From Kaistia geumhonensis (GTDB taxonomy: Bacteria > Pseudomonadota > Alphaproteobacteria > Rhizobiales > Kaistiaceae): a stretch of 64,000 nucleotides of DNA. A model generated the notes under the pieces. The model did no database searches and had not been told where the DNA came from. It was given only the letters and a program-made list of their open reading frames with translations. The position numbers and the translations under genes were made by a program. The stretch lies in contig NZ_JAUSWJ010000001.1 of assembly GCF_030815145.1 (NCBI RefSeq), forward strand, positions 1,922,001 to 1,986,000. Direction: 5' to 3'. Of the stretch, positions 13,920 through 22,721 are shown piece after piece; the first letter of the stretch is position 1, and the number at the start of each line of letters is the position of its first letter.

Positions 13920-14732
13920 TCAGCGCGCGGGTCGCGCGACGACCAGATAACCATAGCCCCGGTCGACCGGCAGGATCGCCGACAGACGGTCGTCCAGCCA
14001 GCCGGCGAGCGGATTGTGGGTCACCGCATATTCCGGCAGTACGCTCTCGATGGTGAGCCGCTCGAGTGCGAAGCCTGCCGCCGCCAGTTCGGCGCCGATC
14101 TCCTCGCGTTCATAGAGATGGTAGAAGAGCGCGATCGCGCGGCCGCCATCGTCGCGGCGATAGCGGATATCGCCGGGCTCGAGACCCGGGAGGCCAGCCG
14201 ACTCGGCCTGTGCGGCGCGGAAGCGCCGACGGCGGTTCGGAAGCCCCAGCACCAGCCGGCCCGAAGGCTTCAGGTTCCCTCGCAGTTCGTCCATCAGCGC
14301 GATGCGGTTCGCCCGCCCGGCGACATGGCCGAGCACACCGAAGCCGAGCAGCGCCACGTCGAAGCTCGCCCGACCGGGGAGCAGCGCCTCATAGGCGGCG
14401 CCCTCGGCATCGGTCACGGCGATCCGGTCCGAAAGCCCCTCGGCCGCGATCCGCTCCTGAAGATGGGCGCGCGCCACCGCGCTGATATCCACCGCCACGA
14501 CCCTCGCGGCGCGCGAGCGGGCGAGCGCCAGACAGTAGCGCCCCTCGCCGGCGCCATAGTCGATCAGCCGGCCACCCTGTGGCAGCAGCTTCTCGAGGAA
14601 GCGCAATGTGCGGCGGTTCGGCCGCGGATAACGGCGCTGATAGAGGCCCGACGAGAAATAGGCGTCGTAGCTCTCGGCCATGTCGGGCAGCAGTTCGCCG
14701 TCCCCGGCCTCCGGACCTCTCCCTGCGGACAT
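13920..14732 (-). CDS. Class I SAM-dependent methyltransferase
   Basis: Predicted methyltransferase of 270 residues. The SAM-binding motif RLIDYGAGEGRY lies at about 55-66, the acidic residue in VVAVDISAVARAHL follows, and FDVALLGFGVLGHV forms the next strand. The C-terminal half (YHLYEREEIGAELAAAGF) is family-typical. The methyl acceptor is unknown. The start could be the internal ATG at MAESYDAYF, since the first 17 residues are poorly conserved in character and the ribosome site at 14732 is weak. It lies 42 bases downstream of the NCS2 permease on the same strand. Confidence 0.78.
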   Translation of the reverse strand: MSAGRGPEAGDGELLPDMAESYDAYFSSGLYQRRYPRPNRRTLRFLEKLLPQGGRLIDYGAGEGRYCLALARSRAARVVAVDISAVARAHLQERIAAEGLSDRIAVTDAEGAAYEALLPGRASFDVALLGFGVLGHVAGRANRIALMDELRGNLKPSGRLVLGLPNRRRRFRAAQAESAGLPGLEPGDIRYRRDDGGRAIALFYHLYEREEIGAELAAAGFALERLTIESVLPEYAVTHNPLAGWLDDRLSAILPVDRGYGYLVVARPAR

Positions 14733-14774: not shown

Positions 14775-16532
14775 TCAGTGCTCGAAATGAAGGCGCAGCA
14801 TCGACGTGCCCGGGTCGGGGCCCGGACCGCTCGACAGGCGGTCGGCGAGACGGCGAAGGAGCGTCCCGGAAATGCTGGACATGGCGGCGTCGATCGCCGA
14901 ATCGTCGTCTCCGTCGAGGAGGCTGGCGAGATCCGCCGCCGCGACGTCGCCGACCGGCATCGGCGGCCCGGAATGGATCAGCACGATATCGAGGTTGAGC
15001 TCGTCGAAGCTGCCGCCGATGGCCTTCACTCGGCGGTCGGCACCGGCCGAATCGATCGCTTCGGCGGCCTCGACGGCGGCGAGCGCCGCGCGGCGGACCA
15101 CATCGCGCCGCGCCGCCCAGGCGCCGCCCATCTCCTCGACGAAATCGGTGATCTGGATCGAGACCGGCGGGCCGTCGGCGGTCAGCGCGACCTTGGCCTC
15201 GCGGCGTATGCCGAGACGGAAGAAGAGATTGAGGACGATGGCGATGACGCCGGTGACGATGAAGCCCGATCCGACCAGATGGCGGAGCGCGGGATGCGCC
15301 TTCTCGGCGAGGCCCGGCATCAGCAGGATCGTGACGCCGCCGAGCAGCGACAGGCCGACGACGAAGATGCCGCGCGTGTCGAGTTCACGCGAGGCGATGA
15401 GGTCGATGCCGGCGGCCATCAGGAAGGCGGCGGCGTAAAGCTCGATCGCGCCGATGACCGGCGTCGGGATCAGCGTCAGCGCCAGCGTCGCCTGCGGCAG
15501 GAAGGCGATCAGCATCAGGATGGCGGCGGTGGCGAGGCCGACGACGCGGCTGGTGACGCCGCTTGCGTGGCAGAGGCCGATATTGGCCGAGGAAGTCGCG
15601 GTCGGCATGGAGCCGAGCAGGCCGCCGATGAAATCGGCGACGCCGGCCGCGAACACGCCGCGGCTCGCCTGCTTCATGTCGGGCCGACGCCAATCGGCAT
15701 CGTCCATTCGGTCGAGCAGGATGAGGCTGCCGACGGTGTCGATTTGCGTCAGGATGGCGATGAAGGCGAGTCCGACGAGCAGGCTGATCGGCACGTCGAA
15801 GACCGGCGCGACGAGGCTCGGCACCGAAACGGGCGGCGCCGCGAGCAGCACGGCCCCGCCTTCGAGCCGCCCCATGGCCGCCGCGGCGGCGATGCCGCCG
15901 ATGACGCCGATGAGCAGCGCCAGCAGCTTCAGTCGCTTGTTGCCCCAGACGGAGAGGCCGACGATCAGCGCCAGCGTGACCGAGGACATCACGAGGCTCG
16001 GAACGTCGATGACGAAATCGTGGCCGAGACTCCAGGAATGCTCGACCGCCTCGCCGACCAGCGACATGCCGCCGATGAGGACGACGAGGCCGGCGACGAT
16101 CGGCGGGAACAGGCCGCGCAACCGCGGCAGCAGCGGCGCGATGCCGAGCGTCGCGAGCGCCGAGATGACCGTCATCGTCACCATGCCGCCCGGCCCGGTG
16201 ACCGCAATCACCGGCGTCGCCAGCGGCACCATGAACACCGAGGGCATGTGGATCATCAGCGATCCGGACCCGAATCGCCCACCCCAGGCCTGAAGCGCGG
16301 TGCCGATCGCCATGGTGATGATGGTGACGGCGAGCAGGTCGCGCGTCTGGTCGACGCTGAGCGAGGCGCTGCGGGCGAGCGCCAGCGTATAGGCGAGAAG
16401 GCCGAGCGCCATCACCGCATGCTGGAAACCCAGCGTCAGCGAGGTCGCGAGCGGGGGCTTCTCGTCGGCGGAAAAGGACAGCTCATGCGGCCGCCGGCGG
16501 GGCCGCGAGGGAGGCAGCTTCAGCGAGATCAT
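14775..16532 (-). CDS. NCS2 uracil/xanthine-type permease with C-terminal RsbW-like ATPase-fold domain
   Basis: Inner-membrane protein of 585 residues. Residues about 30-440 are a nucleobase-cation symporter-2 core: the QH motif in LGFQHAVMALG, and the NCS2 signature GSMPTATSSANIGL at 307-320. Residues about 450-585 form a soluble domain (ITDFVEEMGGAWAARRDVVR, GGSFDELNLDIVLI, LLRRLADRLSS, LRLHFEH) that resembles the HATPase/anti-sigma fold but lacks a clear N-box or glycine box. Ordinary NCS2 proteins stop after the membrane part. The ATG at 16532 is the likely start; an open frame runs to 16700 without family match. It diverges from the STAS gene and neighbours other partner-switch genes, so its transport may be regulated by, or report to, that switch. 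This is inference. Confidence 0.85.
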   Translation of the reverse strand: MISLKLPPSRPRRRPHELSFSADEKPPLATSLTLGFQHAVMALGLLAYTLALARSASLSVDQTRDLLAVTIITMAIGTALQAWGGRFGSGSLMIHMPSVFMVPLATPVIAVTGPGGMVTMTVISALATLGIAPLLPRLRGLFPPIVAGLVVLIGGMSLVGEAVEHSWSLGHDFVIDVPSLVMSSVTLALIVGLSVWGNKRLKLLALLIGVIGGIAAAAAMGRLEGGAVLLAAPPVSVPSLVAPVFDVPISLLVGLAFIAILTQIDTVGSLILLDRMDDADWRRPDMKQASRGVFAAGVADFIGGLLGSMPTATSSANIGLCHASGVTSRVVGLATAAILMLIAFLPQATLALTLIPTPVIGAIELYAAAFLMAAGIDLIASRELDTRGIFVVGLSLLGGVTILLMPGLAEKAHPALRHLVGSGFIVTGVIAIVLNLFFRLGIRREAKVALTADGPPVSIQITDFVEEMGGAWAARRDVVRRAALAAVEAAEAIDSAGADRRVKAIGGSFDELNLDIVLIHSGPPMPVGDVAAADLASLLDGDDDSAIDAAMSSISGTLLRRLADRLSSGPGPDPGTSMLRLHFEH

Positions 16533-16719: not shown

Positions 16720-17064
16720 ATGATGAACGTTACGTTCGAGAGCGTCGGATCGGCCCATATCATCGATCTGTTCGGCCGGCTCGACAGCGCGAATGCGTCT
16801 GCCGTCGAACAGCAGCTCCTCGGAAAGCTGGCGGAAGGAAGCGGCGGCGTGGTGATCGACTTCTCGCGCCTCGACTACATTTCCAGCGCCGGCCTCCGAA
16901 TCGTTCTGGTGGTCGCCAAGCGTATGAAGCAGGCTGGCCGCCGGCTGGTGCTGACCGGCTTCCAGCCCAACATCAAGGACGTGTTCGAGATCAGCGGCTT
17001 CCTGAACATCCTCGACGTGGCGCCGAACCGCGCCGAGGCCGTGAAGCGCAGCGAAGGCGCCTGA
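16720..17064 (+). CDS. STAS-domain anti-sigma factor antagonist (RsbV/SpoIIAA-like)
   Basis: Small cytoplasmic protein of 114 residues consisting of one STAS domain. Strand IIDLFGRLDSANASAVE is followed by VVIDFSRLDYISSAGLRIVL; the phosphorylatable serine should be the second Ser of ISSAGL (Ser56 from this start), and the C-terminal helix FEISGFLNIL is typical. Such proteins are phosphorylated by RsbW-type kinases and dephosphorylated by SpoIIE-type phosphatases. Both domains are encoded next door. TGGAG at 16713 suits either ATG (16720 or 16723). The gene is convergent with the phosphatase, with 8 bases between stops. Confidence 0.92.
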   Translation: MMNVTFESVGSAHIIDLFGRLDSANASAVEQQLLGKLAEGSGGVVIDFSRLDYISSAGLRIVLVVAKRMKQAGRRLVLTGFQPNIKDVFEISGFLNILDVAPNRAEAVKRSEGA

Positions 17065-17072
17065 GCCGCCGC

Positions 17073-18995
17073 CTACGAAGCGAGCGCCTCGGCCGGCGGG
17101 CCGAAATAGCGGACCACGAGGCAGGTGATGTCGTCGGATTGCGGGGCGCCGGCGACGAAGGCGCTGACCGCGCCGGTGACGGCGGTCAGCACCCGGTCGA
17201 CCGGCAGCAGCGCCGCCGAGCGCAGCGTCTCCTCGATGCGGCCTTCGCCGAACTCGCGGCCCTCGCCGTCCATCGCCTCCGAGATGCCGTCGGTATAGAG
17301 GAAGAGCGTGTCGCCGGCCCTCAGCATGGCGGACTTCTCCGCATAGGGCATGTCCGGCAGCACGCCGAGCGCCATGCCACCGGTGCGCGGCAGTTCGACC
17401 ACGTCGCCATCGGCCCGGCGGATCATCAGCGGCGGGTTGTGGCCGCCATTGGCATAGGCGAGTTCGCCGGTCTCGACATCGAGGATGCCGTAGAAGGCGG
17501 TGACGAACAGCTCCATCGGGTTGCGGGCGCAGAGCGCGGCATTGGCCCGGGCGAGACAGACGCCGGGCGTGCCGCCGTCCTGCGCGCTCGCCTGGAGGAC
17601 GGTACGCGAGATCGCCATGAAGAAGGCGGCGGGAACGCCCTTCCCCGACACGTCGGCGATGACGATGCCGAGCCTTTTGTCGTCGAGCGAGAAGAAGTCG
17701 TAGAAATCGCCGCCCATCTCGCGCGCCGGCACCATGGCAGCGGTCCCGGCATAGGCAGGGTTGGGCGGCAGGGCGGTCGGCAGCATCGCGGCCTGGAGCG
17801 TCTTCGCGGCCTGAAGCTCGGCTTCCACGCGGCGGGCCGAGGCCTCGAGCAGTTCGTTCTTCTGTTCGAGCTCCAGCGTGCGCGCCCTCACCTGCGCCTC
17901 GAGATCCTCCTCGCGGCGCTGCACTTCGACCGCCATGGCCTGGAACACGCGGGCGAGCGTGCCGACCTCGTCGGTGCGTCGCGCCACGGTGTCGAGGCTG
18001 CCGGTCTCGAAGCTGCGCGCCTCCATCGCATGCGCGGCCTCGGTCATGGCGGCGACCGGCCGTGCGATCCGCCGCGCCGAGAGCGCCGCGATGCCGGCGC
18101 CGACCGCGAAGACGAGCGCCGCCGCGCCGATGCCGTAGAGGAGCAGGTTGTTGAGCAGTTCCTCCAGCCGCTGGCCCGACATCTCGATCGTCACCGAGCC
18201 GATGACGATGCCCGCCGTGTCGCGGATCGGCGCCGCGACCCAGAGATGGCGACCATGCAGCTCCGAGGCGGGATTGCCGCTTGCGACGACGTCGGCCGCG
18301 AGATCGGCGAGATCGGGCGGCGTCTTCTCCGCGCCGACCTGGCCAAGCGATTTCTGCTGGTCGTCGCGCACCTCGATCGAGATGATGTCGTTGCGGTCGA
18401 GCAGCGCTTCCATCAGCACGGGGACGCTGTTCGCCGCCCGCACGGCGTCGAGCACCGCGACCGGTTGGCCGACGATGACGGCATGGCCTTTCCCCGCGCG
18501 GACGCCGACATAGCGGACGCCGTCGACGGCGGGCCCGAAATCGACGCTGAAGCGGCGGCCGCTCACGAGCGCTTGCAGCGCCTCGGGCGAGAGGTGCTCG
18601 GGCAGCCTCTGCCCGCTGATCACCGCGTCATAGTCGCCGACCGAGGAAGCGAGGATGCGCAGGTTCGAATCGATCAGCCAGATCGCGTCGAGATTGCCGC
18701 GCGCGACGATCTCCGCGAAGCGGTCGCTGAGATCGGGCAGCGACGACTGCTCGACATGGTCGGCGGTGAGCGCGGTCGTCGTGAGGACGTCCGTCACCAC
18801 CTCCTGCGCCTCCTCGAGCGCCACCTCGGAGAGGCGGGCGCTCTCGGCGATGATCCGCGCCACAACCGTCGCCTGCGCCTCCGCCTGCGAGATCAGCGCG
18901 TTGCGGCCGAGCAGGCCGAACACCACGGAGACGACGATGATGGCGAAGGCGATGCAGCTCGCCACCATGACGACGAGGCGGCTGGTGAGGGTCAC
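17073..18995 (-). CDS. SpoIIE/PP2C-family phosphatase with periplasmic sensor and HAMP domain
   Basis: Membrane-bound serine phosphatase of 640 residues. Order: TM1 about 7-29, a predicted periplasmic sensor about 30-285, TM2 about 286-305, HAMP about 306-358, coiled coil about 358-400, and a SpoIIE catalytic domain about 425-630. The metal aspartates are visible in MGGDFYDFF (D430, D433), ADVSGKG (D448), YTDGISEAMDG (D569) and QSDDITCLVV. The GTG start at 18995 overlaps the stop of the permease-RsbW fusion as GTGA, so the two are made together. The likely target is the phospho-STAS protein encoded convergently at 16720. This is the RsbU/RsbP logic of a partner switch, with the input sensed outside the cytoplasm. 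Confidence 0.92.
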   Translation of the reverse strand: MTLTSRLVVMVASCIAFAIIVVSVVFGLLGRNALISQAEAQATVVARIIAESARLSEVALEEAQEVVTDVLTTTALTADHVEQSSLPDLSDRFAEIVARGNLDAIWLIDSNLRILASSVGDYDAVISGQRLPEHLSPEALQALVSGRRFSVDFGPAVDGVRYVGVRAGKGHAVIVGQPVAVLDAVRAANSVPVLMEALLDRNDIISIEVRDDQQKSLGQVGAEKTPPDLADLAADVVASGNPASELHGRHLWVAAPIRDTAGIVIGSVTIEMSGQRLEELLNNLLLYGIGAAALVFAVGAGIAALSARRIARPVAAMTEAAHAMEARSFETGSLDTVARRTDEVGTLARVFQAMAVEVQRREEDLEAQVRARTLELEQKNELLEASARRVEAELQAAKTLQAAMLPTALPPNPAYAGTAAMVPAREMGGDFYDFFSLDDKRLGIVIADVSGKGVPAAFFMAISRTVLQASAQDGGTPGVCLARANAALCARNPMELFVTAFYGILDVETGELAYANGGHNPPLMIRRADGDVVELPRTGGMALGVLPDMPYAEKSAMLRAGDTLFLYTDGISEAMDGEGREFGEGRIEETLRSAALLPVDRVLTAVTGAVSAFVAGAPQSDDITCLVVRYFGPPAEALAS

Positions 18996-20146
18996 GCGAC
19001 GATCCCGCCCTTGACGGCGCCGGCGCGCATCATGACGAGGCGCAGCACGTTCCTGTCCCCCTCGCGCCGATAAAAGGCGCGGTCGATCATCTGCGAGACG
19101 AGATGCACGCCGAGGCCGCCGATCGGCCGCGTCTCCACCGAGGCGCCGAGATCGGGAGGCGGCGCGTCGCGGAACGGGTCGAAACCCTCGCCGCCATAGG
19201 TGAGCTCGACCGTCACGTCGTCCGGCCGGCGATAGATGCCGACCTGCAGCCGGCCGTCGGCCGCGCCGCCATATTTGACGACATTGGTGACCAGTTCCTC
19301 CACCGCGAGGGTGAGCCGGAAGACGGCCGCCGGATCGAGCACGCCCTCGCCCGCCTCCTCGACGCCCGACTGGATGACGGCGATCGAATCGTTCGAGACC
19401 GGCAGGTCTAGGGCAAGGTCCAGCACCGGTTCGCCGCTCAAGGGTTCGTCTCCTTCGGGCATGGCCATCAAGGCGTCCTCGGCGAGGCGCGTCGTCTCGC
19501 CGAGATCGGCGCGCGTCCCGGTGGCCGAGCCGGCCCGCCGGCTGAGCCGCAGCTTGGCATAGCCCATCAGCCGGGCCAACGGCCAGCAGAGCGCCAGGAA
19601 CCACAGCATCGTATAGAGATAGATCCAGAGGATCACCCCCGGATCGCCGATCGCGGCGATGACCGTGTTGGCGCGGTGGACGATTTCCGGGACGCCGATC
19701 ACCGAGGCGGTCGAGGACGCCATCACGATGATGAGCAGGTAGGTCGTCCAGGCCGGGATGAAGTAGAGCGCCTCGATCCGCTCGCCGCGTTCCAGATGGC
19801 GCAACGCCGACAGCGCATTGTCGGAGACGAAGCCCGTGACCGCCACGGCGAGCGCCACCGAGGCCTTGAGCCAGTCGGGGATCGGCAGCGCCACGCTCCC
19901 GAGCGTCACCTGCGGCGGGACGACATAGGCGAGATAATAGATGAGCACGAAGGTCGGCGGGACGCGCGCCGCGGCGGTGAGCGCGCCGGCGAGCCGCGAG
20001 CCGCGCTGGCGGCCGCGCGCCAGCAGCATGCCGAGCGGCGTACCGATCGCCATGGTCAGCAGCGAGATGCCGATATTGATCAGGAATCCGACGCCGAGAT
20101 AGGGCGTCCACGCCCACAGCATCGCGAGGATTTCGGATGGGCTCAT
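18992..20146 (-). CDS. ABC-type permease fused to an RsbW-like anti-sigma/kinase ATPase domain
   Basis: Single reading frame of 384 residues with two unrelated halves. Residues 1-200 are a polar-amino-acid ABC permease with about five membrane segments (LGVGFLINIGISLLTMAIG, MASSTASVIGVPEIV). Residues about 225-375 are a GHKL domain: N-box LAVEELVTNVVKYGG at 280-294, YGGEGFDPF at 317-325 in place of the G1 box, and PIGGLGVHLV at 341-350 as G2. No stop or start break separates them; the linker is about 201-228. The permease EAA loop region (LSALRHLERG) lacks the Glu and Gly that dock an ABC ATPase. ATGA overlaps with the binding-protein/permease gene upstream and GTGA with the phosphatase downstream. 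I infer a membrane-tethered kinase/antisigma protein that may respond to ligand binding. Confidence 0.88.
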   Translation of the reverse strand: MSPSEILAMLWAWTPYLGVGFLINIGISLLTMAIGTPLGMLLARGRQRGSRLAGALTAAARVPPTFVLIYYLAYVVPPQVTLGSVALPIPDWLKASVALAVAVTGFVSDNALSALRHLERGERIEALYFIPAWTTYLLIIVMASSTASVIGVPEIVHRANTVIAAIGDPGVILWIYLYTMLWFLALCWPLARLMGYAKLRLSRRAGSATGTRADLGETTRLAEDALMAMPEGDEPLSGEPVLDLALDLPVSNDSIAVIQSGVEEAGEGVLDPAAVFRLTLAVEELVTNVVKYGGAADGRLQVGIYRRPDDVTVELTYGGEGFDPFRDAPPPDLGASVETRPIGGLGVHLVSQMIDRAFYRREGDRNVLRLVMMRAGAVKGGIVA

Positions 20147-21729
20147 CGCGAGAGCATCCGCCGCTCGACGAGCGTGAAGAGATGCGCCACCGCGAGCACG
20201 ATCAGCACATAGACGGCGAGCAGGATGTTCATCATCACCGCGCCATTGCCATAGTCGGCGGCGATCGCCGCGCTGGCATGGACGAGTTCGGGAACCGCGA
20301 TGGCGCTTGCCATGGCCGTCGCCTTCACGATGTTGATGCAGGAGCCCATCACGGCCGGATGGGCGAGCCGCAGCACGCGCTTCATGCGGTGCGCGGAGCC
20401 CGGCGCGATCGTCTCCCATGCCTCGGCGAGCACGGCGGCGTTGGCGGCGCCGGAATAGAATGAGAGAACCGCGACGGCGGTCCAGAAGGCGGAGAGCGTC
20501 AGCCCATGCACGGCGACGAGGCCGCCGATGCCGAAGAAAACCAGATAGAGCTGGAGCAGCGGCGGGGTCATCCGCATCACCGCGAGGACGCCATAGAGCA
20601 GCGGCGTCGCCAGCGGCAGGCGGCGGGCGAGCAGGAAGGCGCCGCCCGCGCCGACGGCGAGGCTGCCGACGAGCACCGAGGCGGCGAGTGCCAGCGTGGT
20701 CAGAAGTCCGTGCAGCAGGCCAGCGCGGTGATAGGGGTCGTAGAAGGGCGTGACGTCGAGGCCGAGGCGGTCGCGCAGGGCCAGCGCAAGGCCGGCGAGG
20801 CCGACCACCTGCTGAGCTTCGATGAGGTTCAGTTCGCGGCAGGCGAGCGGCCAGCTGCCATCCGCGCCCCGGCGGCAGACATAGTCGCCCGAGGCGTCGC
20901 GTGCCGACCAGAGCGCCCCCGCCTCGACGAGATAGGCCGAGGGCGGCAGCTTCCACTTCGCCTCGAGCGCCTTCAGATGACCGTCGCGCAGCCATGCGGC
21001 GACCTGATCCTCGAACGCCGTGGCGAGACGACCGTCGCCGGCGACCGCGATGGCCCAGGGCGAGACGAAATCCGGCGTCAGCAGGCGATAGCCCGGCCAT
21101 TCGCCGCTCTCGACGCGATGCTGCAACGCCGCCTCGTCATAGAGCCAGCCCTCGCAGGCGCCGTCCCGCAGCGCCAGTTCGGCGTCGCGAACGCTGCCGA
21201 AGGCCTCGATGTGACCATTGAGGCGCGTGGCGATCAGGCGGTTCCACAGCGCGCCCTGGACCGCGCAGAGCGAGCGGTTGCGGAGATCCGTCCAGGTCCG
21301 GATCGGGCTTTGCTGCGGCACCATCACGCTGGCGCCGCCGCCGTAATAGCCGGGCTCGATCATGCGCACGATGCGGCGGCGGTCGATCGTGTCGCCGAGC
21401 GTCGCCACCACCGCGTCGACCTCGCCGCCGGTGAGCTTCTGCAACCGGTTGGCGCTCGTCACCGGCACGAGCTTCAGCCCGACGCCGAGCGAATCGGCGA
21501 GGCCCCTGGCGACATCGACGTCGAATCCGACCGTCTCGCCGCTCGCATCGCGGAAGCCGAAGGGCTCGTAGTCCGTCTTGACGCCAACGACGAGCGTGCC
21601 GCGGGCGCGGATTTCGTCGAGCCGGTCGGCCCGTGCCGGCAGCGCGCCCGTGACGAGGGTCACGATGCCGAGCAAAAGGGCGCAAAGCAGCAGCGCCGGG
21701 CCGCCCGCCTGCCGCTTCGCCTTCGCCAA
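20143..21729 (-). CDS. Amino-acid-type ABC binding protein fused to permease
   Basis: Protein of 528 residues. A signal or anchor segment covers about 12-34. A periplasmic SBP_bac_3 domain lies at about 36-270 (GTLVVGVKTDYEPFGFRDAS, NRLQKLTGGEVDAVVATLGD). A polar-amino-acid permease domain lies at about 325-525 (INIVKATAMASAIAVPELV). Such fusions exist in true importers, but here the EAA loop reads AEAWETIAPGSAHRMKRVLR and aligns only partly with EAAxxxG, and no matching ABC ATPase gene is near. It heads the operon that continues with the permease-RsbW fusion (ATGA overlap) and the SpoIIE phosphatase. It may be a ligand receptor rather than a transporter; that is inference. Confidence 0.85.
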   Translation of the reverse strand: MAKAKRQAGGPALLLCALLLGIVTLVTGALPARADRLDEIRARGTLVVGVKTDYEPFGFRDASGETVGFDVDVARGLADSLGVGLKLVPVTSANRLQKLTGGEVDAVVATLGDTIDRRRIVRMIEPGYYGGGASVMVPQQSPIRTWTDLRNRSLCAVQGALWNRLIATRLNGHIEAFGSVRDAELALRDGACEGWLYDEAALQHRVESGEWPGYRLLTPDFVSPWAIAVAGDGRLATAFEDQVAAWLRDGHLKALEAKWKLPPSAYLVEAGALWSARDASGDYVCRRGADGSWPLACRELNLIEAQQVVGLAGLALALRDRLGLDVTPFYDPYHRAGLLHGLLTTLALAASVLVGSLAVGAGGAFLLARRLPLATPLLYGVLAVMRMTPPLLQLYLVFFGIGGLVAVHGLTLSAFWTAVAVLSFYSGAANAAVLAEAWETIAPGSAHRMKRVLRLAHPAVMGSCINIVKATAMASAIAVPELVHASAAIAADYGNGAVMMNILLAVYVLIVLAVAHLFTLVERRMLSR

Positions 21730-21783: not shown

Positions 21784-21822
21784 ATGAAGAAGGGCTTCTC
21801 CATCGGGAGCATCGCGGCGTGA
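21784..21822 (+). CDS. Possible 12-residue leader peptide
   Basis: ATG at 21784 opens a frame reading MKKGFSIGSIAA whose TGA overlaps the next gene's ATG (bases TGATG at 21820-21824). The arrangement would couple translation of the following binding-protein gene to this leader. It could also be chance, or a remnant of an earlier start. Confidence 0.3.
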   Translation: MKKGFSIGSIAA

Positions 21823-22721
21823 TGGTTCTCTTTTTCTCGGCTCGGCGGCCTCGCCTCGGCCGGCGCGTTCTGTCGGCGCTCCTCGCCCTCTTCGCAGTCC
21901 TGCAGGTTGCGTCCGCCGGAACGCTGGACCGGCTGAAGGAAACGGGCGTGCTGCGCGCAGGGACCCGCGCCGACGCGATCCCCTTCGCCTATGACGACGG
22001 CAGCGGCAAGCCGGTCGGCTTCTCGGTCGACCTGATCGAGGAGATTCGCGCCGCCGCCGAGGCGTCGCTCGGCCGGCCGGTCACGCTCGACCTCTCGGTG
22101 ATCACGCCGGCCAACCGCATCCAGCAGGTCGCGGAAGGCAAGCTCGATATCGTCTGCGAGATCACGACGCCGACCTGGGAACGGGAGAAGCAGGTCGATT
22201 TCTCGGTGCCGATCTTCCGCGACGGCACGCGCATCCTCGCCTTCCGCGACACGCTGCGCACGACGCCCAACCCGAAGGACATGCTGATCGGCGTCGCCGA
22301 AGGCACGACGACCGCCACGATCCTGGAAGAGGCGCTGCCGGGCGTCCGCATCAAGAGCTTCCCCACCATGGACGCGGCGTTCGCCGCGCTCGGCAAGGGC
22401 GAGGTGCAGGGCGTCGCCAATATCGGCGTCGTGCTGCTCGGCCTGTCGCGCAAGTTCGAGCCGGGTCGCAGCGTCGTGCTGCTGCCACGCGCCGCGCCCT
22501 TCGGCAACGAGACCATGGCCTGCATCCTCCCGCAGGACGACAGCCACTGGCGCGACTTCGTCAATCACACCATCGTCAAGCTCGAGGACGGGCTCGCCGA
22601 CTATCGCGGCCGCTACATGGAACTGCACGACAAGTGGTTCGGCCGCGGCGGCGTCATGGTCTATCCGCTCGACCGCTCGACCCGCGACTATCTTCTGCAG
22701 TCCAATATCTGGGCCCGATGA
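21822..22721 (+). CDS. Amino-acid-type ABC substrate-binding protein (SBP_bac_3)
   Basis: Periplasmic protein of 299 residues. A signal peptide (RRVLSALLALFAVLQVASA, cleavage before GTL) is followed by the SBP_bac_3 fold: TGVLRAGTRADAIPFAYDDG, GKPVGFSVDLIEEI, ITPANRIQQVAEGKLDIVCE. It has no permease attached and no transporter partner beside it. It is transcribed away from the binding-protein/permease-RsbW-phosphatase operon, 92 bases apart. Its stop overlaps the APH-like kinase start as ATGA. A GTG at 21819 is an alternative start. It may supply ligand to the divergent receptor-like operon, or act as a sensor. Confidence 0.87.
   Translation: MVLFFSARRPRLGRRVLSALLALFAVLQVASAGTLDRLKETGVLRAGTRADAIPFAYDDGSGKPVGFSVDLIEEIRAAAEASLGRPVTLDLSVITPANRIQQVAEGKLDIVCEITTPTWEREKQVDFSVPIFRDGTRILAFRDTLRTTPNPKDMLIGVAEGTTTATILEEALPGVRIKSFPTMDAAFAALGKGEVQGVANIGVVLLGLSRKFEPGRSVVLLPRAAPFGNETMACILPQDDSHWRDFVNHTIVKLEDGLADYRGRYMELHDKWFGRGGVMVYPLDRSTRDYLLQSNIWAR

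Follow-up and report, generated by a model that had tools for sequence, protein, structure and literature searches.

The window analysed here, a stretch of 64,000 nucleotides from the genome of Kaistia geumhonensis (contig NZ_JAUSWJ010000001.1, positions 1,922,001 to 1,986,000), carries on its reverse strand three overlapping genes (17073-21729) in which the solute-binding and membrane parts of an ATP-binding cassette (ABC) importer of the polar-amino-acid (PAAT) type are joined to an RsbW-like GHKL domain and followed by a SpoIIE-type phosphatase. We propose, at a probability of roughly 0.6, that the first two products, P0001 and P0002, form a receptor that derives from a PAAT importer, no longer transports, and controls the GHKL/SpoIIE/STAS switch encoded alongside it. 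In what follows genomes are labelled G, loci L and families f; G000 is the K. geumhonensis genome itself, which is a single contig. Permease 1 is the permease of P0001 and permease 2 that of P0002. The features on which the argument turns are these:

20143-21729, reverse strand: P0001, a signal peptide, a solute-binding domain (SBP_bac_3, about 20953-21594) and the first PAAT-type permease in one protein
18992-20146, reverse strand: P0002, the second permease of PAAT type, ending in an RsbW-like GHKL domain (HATPase_c_2, about 19034-19387) that is fused to it
17073-18995, reverse strand: P0003, a transmembrane segment, a periplasmic sensor of ~255 amino acids, a second transmembrane segment, HAMP, a linker and a SpoIIE/PPM phosphatase
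16720-17064, forward strand: P0005, a STAS antagonist whose motif YISSAGLR contains the phosphorylatable Ser; its gene converges on that of P0003
20335-20445, reverse strand: site of the EAA-loop gap in permease 1, with 37 residues where relatives that have an ATPase, and ordinary PAAT permeases, have 53
19721-19828, reverse strand: site of the EAA-loop gap in permease 2, 36 residues against 56, the missing stretch being the EAA region of ArtQ (PDB 4YMS)

The overlaps read ATGA at P0001/P0002 and GTGA at P0002/P0003, and on all of this an earlier sequence-only reading of the DNA proved exact in its gene limits, overlaps and domain calls, which were borne out by domain matches: SBP_bac_3 (E=4e-25) and the PAAT permease model TIGR01726 (E=7e-9, weak and below its cut-off) in P0001, HATPase_c_2 (E=3e-15) and TIGR01726 (E=3.5e-4) in P0002, and SpoIIE (E=4e-50) plus HAMP in P0003. 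The architecture of P0001 is conserved in all seven aligned loci, and the profile of permease 2 matches ArtQ of PDB 4YMS (E=9.7e-11), so that both the permease and the solute-binding domains of the PAAT family are present. The partner-switch gene set is likewise complete, with the SpoIIE/PPM phosphatase, the STAS protein with its Ser and the RsbW-type domain all inside 16720-20146; the metal-binding Asp motifs of SpoIIE are invariant, and the STAS Ser conserved, in 7 of 7 copies. The sensor domain of P0003 has weak Cache/DcuS similarity (E 0.017-0.77). In an alignment with 4YMX, the solute-binding domain, judged by eye, retains an Arg and an acidic pair, which we take to be, respectively, that of the PAAT carboxylate site and the one near the amino site, and its ligand is for that reason likely to be amino-acid-like.

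The cytoplasmic EAA loop is the coupling helix where the ABC ATPase docks, and alignment with ordinary PAAT permeases finds it missing from permease 1 and permease 2 alike; the extra stretch that ArtQ has relative to permease 2 is its EAA region. Measured between fixed anchors, the segment of permease 2 is 36 residues long in all 19 ATPase-less relatives (G510, G682, G759 and 16 others, permease 2 of G690 being a partial read) and 56 in all four genomes of family f186, which keep an ATPase. It is also 56 in 33 distinct ordinary loci (13/13 importers and 26/26 full-loop loci, six of them common to both sets). For permease 1 the corresponding lengths are 35-44 residues in loop-less members against 53. 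No loop segment was obtained from L119 (partial) or L148 (no permease 2 called), and L124, at a contig end, has a partial permease 2 with the loop region present and was excluded from both trees described below.

That no PAAT ATPase gene lies in or near the P0001-P0003 locus, as the sequence-only reading had it, was confirmed, and a dedicated ATPase elsewhere in the K. geumhonensis genome was looked for as well. A PAAT ATPase query (150 of 212 candidates scored) found two PAAT-type ATPases there, at 54% and 49% identity, the next being at 38%. Each adjoins permeases and a solute-binding protein of its own, one in an operon with two large permeases and the other as a permease-ATPase fusion; both serve other importers, both were rejected as dedicated partners of the cluster, and none is spare. 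Among the relatives, a PAAT-type ATPase stands beside the permease pair in none of the 19 loop-less genomes, within the fetched stretches (which contig ends cut in G690 and G510), and a PAAT ATPase gene lies within about 1.5 kb in 24 of 26 full-loop loci (the exceptions are L110 and L147) against 0 of 5 loop-less loci. Such an ATPase does accompany these genes in one lineage, the four genomes of f186, where the docking loops are intact; the f186 ATPases inspected, those of G638 and G719, retain GPSGTGKTT (Walker A), a signature-like LSAGQ, DEVTAALDP (Walker B) and SSHD (H-loop).

These observations bear on the view that the permease pair still transports, either as a facilitator or with a non-cognate ATPase borrowed through some other contact. 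Its permeases and solute-binding domains are well conserved (65-92% identity across seven loci), and there are precedents in the solitary ECF S-components that transport without their module (PMC11109136; here and below, sources given by PMC number are cited from excerpts) and in CbrA, which both transports and signals (PMC7918813). Against it stand the absence of both EAA loops in 19 of 19 ATPase-less members and in none of the four with an ATPase, and the lack of a spare PAAT ATPase in the genome, and we regard continued transport as unlikely.

A permease tree built without the loop columns gathers the loop-less proteins into one clade (ultrafast bootstrap 94), joins this clade to f186 at 100, and sets both apart from 16 ordinary importers; an earlier tree with fewer taxa gave 100 and 100 for those two nodes. 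Because the loop-less proteins form one clade even with the loop columns removed, a single loss of the loops is the simplest reading, and most likely an importer already linked to a partner switch lost its ATPase and its loops, and became a receptor, once. In the RsbW tree, f186 RsbW and fused RsbW fall on opposite sides of a split supported at 97; RsbW therefore joined the gene set at least twice or was replaced, and the same split led us to reject it as the ancestral companion of the loop-less clade. G037, in which RsbW is a separate gene, is nested within the fused clade in the permease trees (98; 96) and lies outside it in the RsbW tree (86). Its unfused arrangement was accordingly not upheld as the ancestral state, and since the two kinds of tree disagree on G037, it is possible either that fusion was followed by fission or that fusion came late or more than once.

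Full-length fusions were found in 6 of the 28 genomes of the family, all of them in the window's genus, and a sample of 397 genomes from the order adds G037. From a class sample of 385 genomes, 22 matched at E<=1e-20: eight with the SpoIIE-type cluster (G000, G572, G551, G663, G690, G538, G638 and G719), three with a loop-less pair and a cyclase (G510, G682 and G759) and eleven with full loops, one of which, G770, has two loci, one without an ATPase seen beside it. Follow-up brought in G1111 (2/17 in the family of G551), G1116 and G1117 (3/7 in the order of G572) and G1119 (4/4 in the order of G719), and a sample of 398 genomes from the phylum contributed G914 and G1018, both outside the class. 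The three genes thus co-occur in part as they stand in the window: six of the 28 genomes of the family have the full fusion, and eight of the 22 class matches have the gene set in varied form. Because of this recurrence we do not regard the gene set as a product of chance. On plasmids, 46 records matched and none covered 80% of P0002. Among gammaproteobacterial matches, the permeases are followed by an ABC ATPase gene in L006-L008 and L010-L013, and L009 yielded just a short ATPase fragment.

The genomes found within the class total 21, of which 17 are loop-less and four belong to f186. A SpoIIE protein with the same sensor and an orphan solute-binding protein are present in 18 of them (six Kaistia, G037, three f94, two f67, G663, G690 and four f186), and of these 18 genomes 14 have an RsbW within the cluster, 15 a STAS gene within the fetched stretch and 16 a methyltransferase. 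RsbW is fused to permease 2 in nine genomes, six of Kaistia and three of f94. The f67 genomes have SpoIIE after permease 2 and RsbW only elsewhere. Within f186, G719 and G1119 carry STAS, SpoIIE, methyltransferase, solute-binding protein, solute-binding protein-permease fusion, permease, ATPase and RsbW as one run in one direction; G638 has the same genes in two groups that face each other, and G538 has ~9 kb between its permeases and the ATPase and RsbW genes.

Two sites within the P0002 gene concern the fused domain:

19196-19198, reverse strand: G1-box position of the GHKL domain, Tyr in place of the adenine-anchoring Asp
19439-19455, reverse strand: possible internal start of a free RsbW, AAGGAG at 19450-19455 and an in-frame TTG at 19439-19441

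The GHKL profile of P0002 matches RsbW 6m36 (E=1.4e-15), and a Foldseek search with its AlphaFold2 model places RsbW and SpoIIAB structures on top, with MetNI at E=0.08 for the permease part. The N-box Glu/Asn (EELVTN) and the G2 glycines (GGLG) are kept in all nine fused copies; the G1-box Asp is present in 3/3 f94 fusions, in G037 (1/1) and in 4/4 f186 copies, a count that leaves aside the RsbW copies of L208 and L210, which the motif search did not read. With this Asp lost, the Kaistia P0002 may bind STAS without phosphorylating it, or may hold its nucleotide differently. The putative internal TTG sits where the unfused RsbW of G037 starts, and 9 of 9 fused genes have an in-frame NTG or ATG near the ancestral RsbW start. 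A GGAG core resembling a Shine-Dalgarno sequence precedes it in 6/6 Kaistia genes, and the three f94 genes have only a GGGGA type. Such a core is found at 162 of the 3356 in-frame NTG codons that served as background, GGA makes up 5.1% of Gly codons in the Kaistia loci, and other NTG sites of this kind are present in the same fused genes; a free RsbW made from an internal start is thus suggestive only.

Several points weigh against a receptor that controls the adjacent switch. The P0002 model is moderately confident (mean predicted local distance difference test score, pLDDT, 72; predicted template modelling score, pTM, 0.48), and all six Kaistia fusions have Tyr or Phe in place of the G1-box Asp, so that their kinase step may depart from that of RsbW. 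L110 and L147 are ordinary full-loop loci that likewise have no ATPase nearby, and a missing neighbour ATPase alone therefore proves little. The spread of the cluster is patchy (6/14 genomes of the genus, 1/20 in the family of G037, where the strong match is G037 itself, and 2/17 in that of G551). Neither SpoIIE nor RsbW appears in the fetched stretches of G510, G682 and G759, and searches of the G914 and G1018 genomes found neither an RsbW (E<=1e-6) nor a matching sensor (E<=1e-4); these five indicate that a partner switch does not accompany the receptor in every case. Finally, it is from sequence that we infer the ligand, the controlled enzyme, the target, the signalling and the absence of transport.

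Patchiness within the genus and the substitutions in the G1 box would also suit a decaying importer operon in which the gene fusion is an accident. Decay of this kind is very improbable, given that the proteins are ~60-96% identical among the fused group and G037, that the SpoIIE catalytic motifs are invariant and the frames open in the copies read, and that the fusion is kept in nine genomes and the loop loss in 19.

A more substantial rival places control elsewhere: the receptor would act on an adjacent Cache-type effector, SpoIIE or, in f118/f158, a dCache-nucleotide cyclase, with the fused RsbW a secondary docking platform for STAS (a pseudokinase in Kaistia) and phosphorylation left to another RsbW, such as the one at C1:461879-462229 of the same genome. 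SpoIIE in 18 of the 21 class genomes and a cyclase in the other three, against RsbW in the cluster in only 14, speak in its favour, as do the f67 arrangement, the altered Kaistia G1 box and the second STAS-RsbW-SpoIIE set of the K. geumhonensis genome. What argues for the GHKL domain as the direct output is its fusion to permease 2 in nine genomes of two groups, the N-box and G2 residues that every fused copy keeps and the G1 Asp that the f94 fusions keep; moreover the SpoIIE sensor was not found in G914 and G1018, where cyclases were not searched for. We hold this effector-centred account to be possible, if somewhat doubtful. The sequence-only reading had the importer parts as a ligand receptor that controls the kinase half of the switch. 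It made no mention of the EAA gaps, nor of the STAS gene next to P0003, the NCS2 permease with its additional domain, the methyltransferase or the divergent orphan solute-binding protein. Its receptor part gains strong support from the loops (lost in 19/19 ATPase-less members, intact in 4/4 with an ATPase); its kinase part is not established, and the Kaistia G1 box, the 18 to 14 preponderance of SpoIIE over RsbW and the three cyclase loci count against it.

The cyclase-type loci, which belong to families f118/f158, have the loop-less pair beside a dCache-Guanylate_cyc protein in G682, G759 and G510 (Pfam was run on the G759 and G510 copies), and in G682 and G759 a methyltransferase-like gene lies between pair and cyclase (Pfam run on the G759 copy). 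In coordinates, the loop-less solute-binding protein-permease pair and the dCache-nucleotide cyclase span 4500-9603 of L214, 4498-9609 of L213 and 1606-6678 of L212, with the methyltransferase-like gene between them in L214 and L213. In G914 the pair comes after genes for a methyltransferase and an NMT1-like membrane protein. By gene content the commonest theme is a predicted receptor with a Cache-like effector, and the use of this receptor is broader than the partner switch.

Three neighbouring genes of the window may belong to the same system:

14775-16532, reverse strand: P0004, an NCS2 permease of the xanthine type whose C-terminal domain (14778-15200) is GHKL-like but degenerate
13920-14732, reverse strand: a class I S-adenosylmethionine-dependent methyltransferase; of the 18 genomes that carry the SpoIIE-type cluster, 16 have a member of its family
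21822-22721, forward strand: P0006, a divergent SBP_bac_3 orphan that resembles GrrP (TIGR04262 match below the cut-off) and is found in all 18 of those genomes

The tail of P0004, its last 141 residues, has the GHKL order of elements in an AlphaFold2 model (mean pLDDT 77), and nearly all of the 50 Foldseek matches listed are GHKL proteins, although these are weak (best E-value 0.002). It matches nothing in Pfam and no PDB sequence in a meaningful way, reaches only 33% probability against the RsbW profile and, by eye, is without the N-box Asn and the glycines; a degenerate GHKL-like domain is nevertheless likely from the model. In all nine genomes where NCS2 permeases with such a tail were seen (six Kaistia, G1116, G1117 and G102) a STAS gene lies nearby, which makes the tail a candidate STAS target. 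In G102 the tailed NCS2, STAS and RsbW genes are adjacent without an ABC-derived receptor (L075, 6770-9414). No sigma factor was noticed in the locus, where no search aimed at sigma factors or other targets was made. The methyltransferase, which has a SYDxYxxSGLYxxRYP-like motif and accompanies the cluster in most lineages, is possibly an adaptation enzyme.

On the receptor proposal, the solute-binding protein-permease fusion and the permease-RsbW fusion would pair up as a heterodimer that descends from a type I importer of polar amino acids, a transporter fold without its energising module and linked to signalling domains by fusion and gene neighbourhood only. Ligand would close the tethered binding domain and the permease pair would move as in an importer, but this movement would run down the last helix of P0002 into the GHKL domain and also reach the SpoIIE sensor phosphatase at its side. 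GHKL and SpoIIE would jointly set the phosphorylation, or the capture, of P0005, and free P0005 would act on a downstream target, for which the NCS2 pseudo-GHKL tail is a candidate. In Kaistia the GHKL domain may be a platform that holds STAS rather than an active kinase, and the methyltransferase may tune the GHKL-STAS step or the activity of P0003. In its widest form the proposal is of a new class of receptor made of type I importer permeases and a tethered solute-binding protein, with ATPase and loops lost in one event, at least two outputs (the partner switch and the dCache-nucleotide cyclase), a methyltransferase perhaps for adaptation, and a Kaistia STAS protein that perhaps moves between the receptor GHKL domain and the NCS2 tail; we offer it tentatively, as a conjecture a little short of an even chance.

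Other partner-switch genes were met along the way. The K. geumhonensis genome has a second set of STAS, RsbW and a 391-residue SpoIIE protein (L074, 9470-11423; C1:461469-463422), with which cross-talk is possible. Another genome of the order has a Guanylate_cyc-RsbW fusion next to a STAS gene (L073, 8980-10644). A different recurrent locus (L069, 8953-13561; L070; L072) has an RsbW-STAS pair next to genes for large membrane proteins and for an exported protein that looks like a binding protein, these neighbours lying outside the Pfam runs, and L207 (2315-5324) and L209, from G551 and G1111, have STAS, a 693-residue protein kinase-like protein (outside the Pfam runs) and RsbW in a row.

Known systems share parts of this design. 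RsbU/RsbV/RsbW and SpoIIE/SpoIIAA/SpoIIAB are partner switches, and these and RbaVWY resemble the Kaistia set in their GHKL kinase-type domain, STAS antagonist and SpoIIE/PPM-type phosphatase; in RsbW systems, however, RsbW is soluble, whereas in this cluster it forms the C-terminal end of an ABC permease whose partner is a fused binding protein and permease. Importers of the GlnP type, which have fused binding domains, and HisQMP and ArtQN have the solute-binding protein-permease fusion and the PAAT permease fold in common with the cluster, but possess the EAA loops and the ATPase that it lacks. BceAB-BceS resembles the proposed receptor in that an ABC membrane protein acts as co-sensor of a kinase, but there the transporter is complete and its ATPase is needed.

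The partner switch RbaVWY comes from an alphaproteobacterium, Rhodobacter capsulatus, and the abstract on it mentions no such receptor (PMC3999984); an excerpted review of STAS-only proteins does not use the word permease (PMC8256260). Closest are the S-component/5TMR sensor kinases, in which a transporter membrane fold serves as receptor and which their authors call the first prokaryotic case (PMC11109136, which also names BceAB-BceS). Module assembly is tied to a conserved motif there and to the EAA loop here. That relation was seen by fold, the authors being unable to build conclusive trees, and concerns ECF S-components; here the permeases are of type I importers and sequence phylogeny suggests a direction. 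CbrA and MxtR/CrbS likewise fuse a transporter domain to a GHKL-containing kinase, although the parts are an SLC5 symporter and a histidine kinase, and CbrA still transports histidine (PMC7918813). In Bacillus cereus RsbM methylates RsbK, a methyltransferase thus acting on a sensor upstream of SigB (PMC4574943), an analogy only for the methyltransferase of the cluster. The sequence-only reading did not know the design as a characterised system, and none was described in the open-access literature searched, a body that leaves out most subscription papers and all preprints; its novelty is provisional.

Transporters and receptors are usually treated as unrelated, and the large bacterial link between them in print rests on likeness of fold, without a conclusive tree (PMC11109136). 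The present sequences suggest a direction and steps, from a complete importer with a partner switch, through loss of the ATPase and its docking loop, to fusion of a kinase-type domain. The predicted receptor is a testable one, its ligand domain, membrane part and output lying in three adjacent genes, and the 20-residue gap is a simple diagnostic for finding further examples; genes annotated as amino-acid ABC permeases can, as a caution, be sensors. For Kaistia and its relatives, the importer membrane parts have lost the piece that grips the ATPase and sit with, and in part are joined to, the enzymes of a switch, and for that reason they most likely serve nutrient sensing rather than import.

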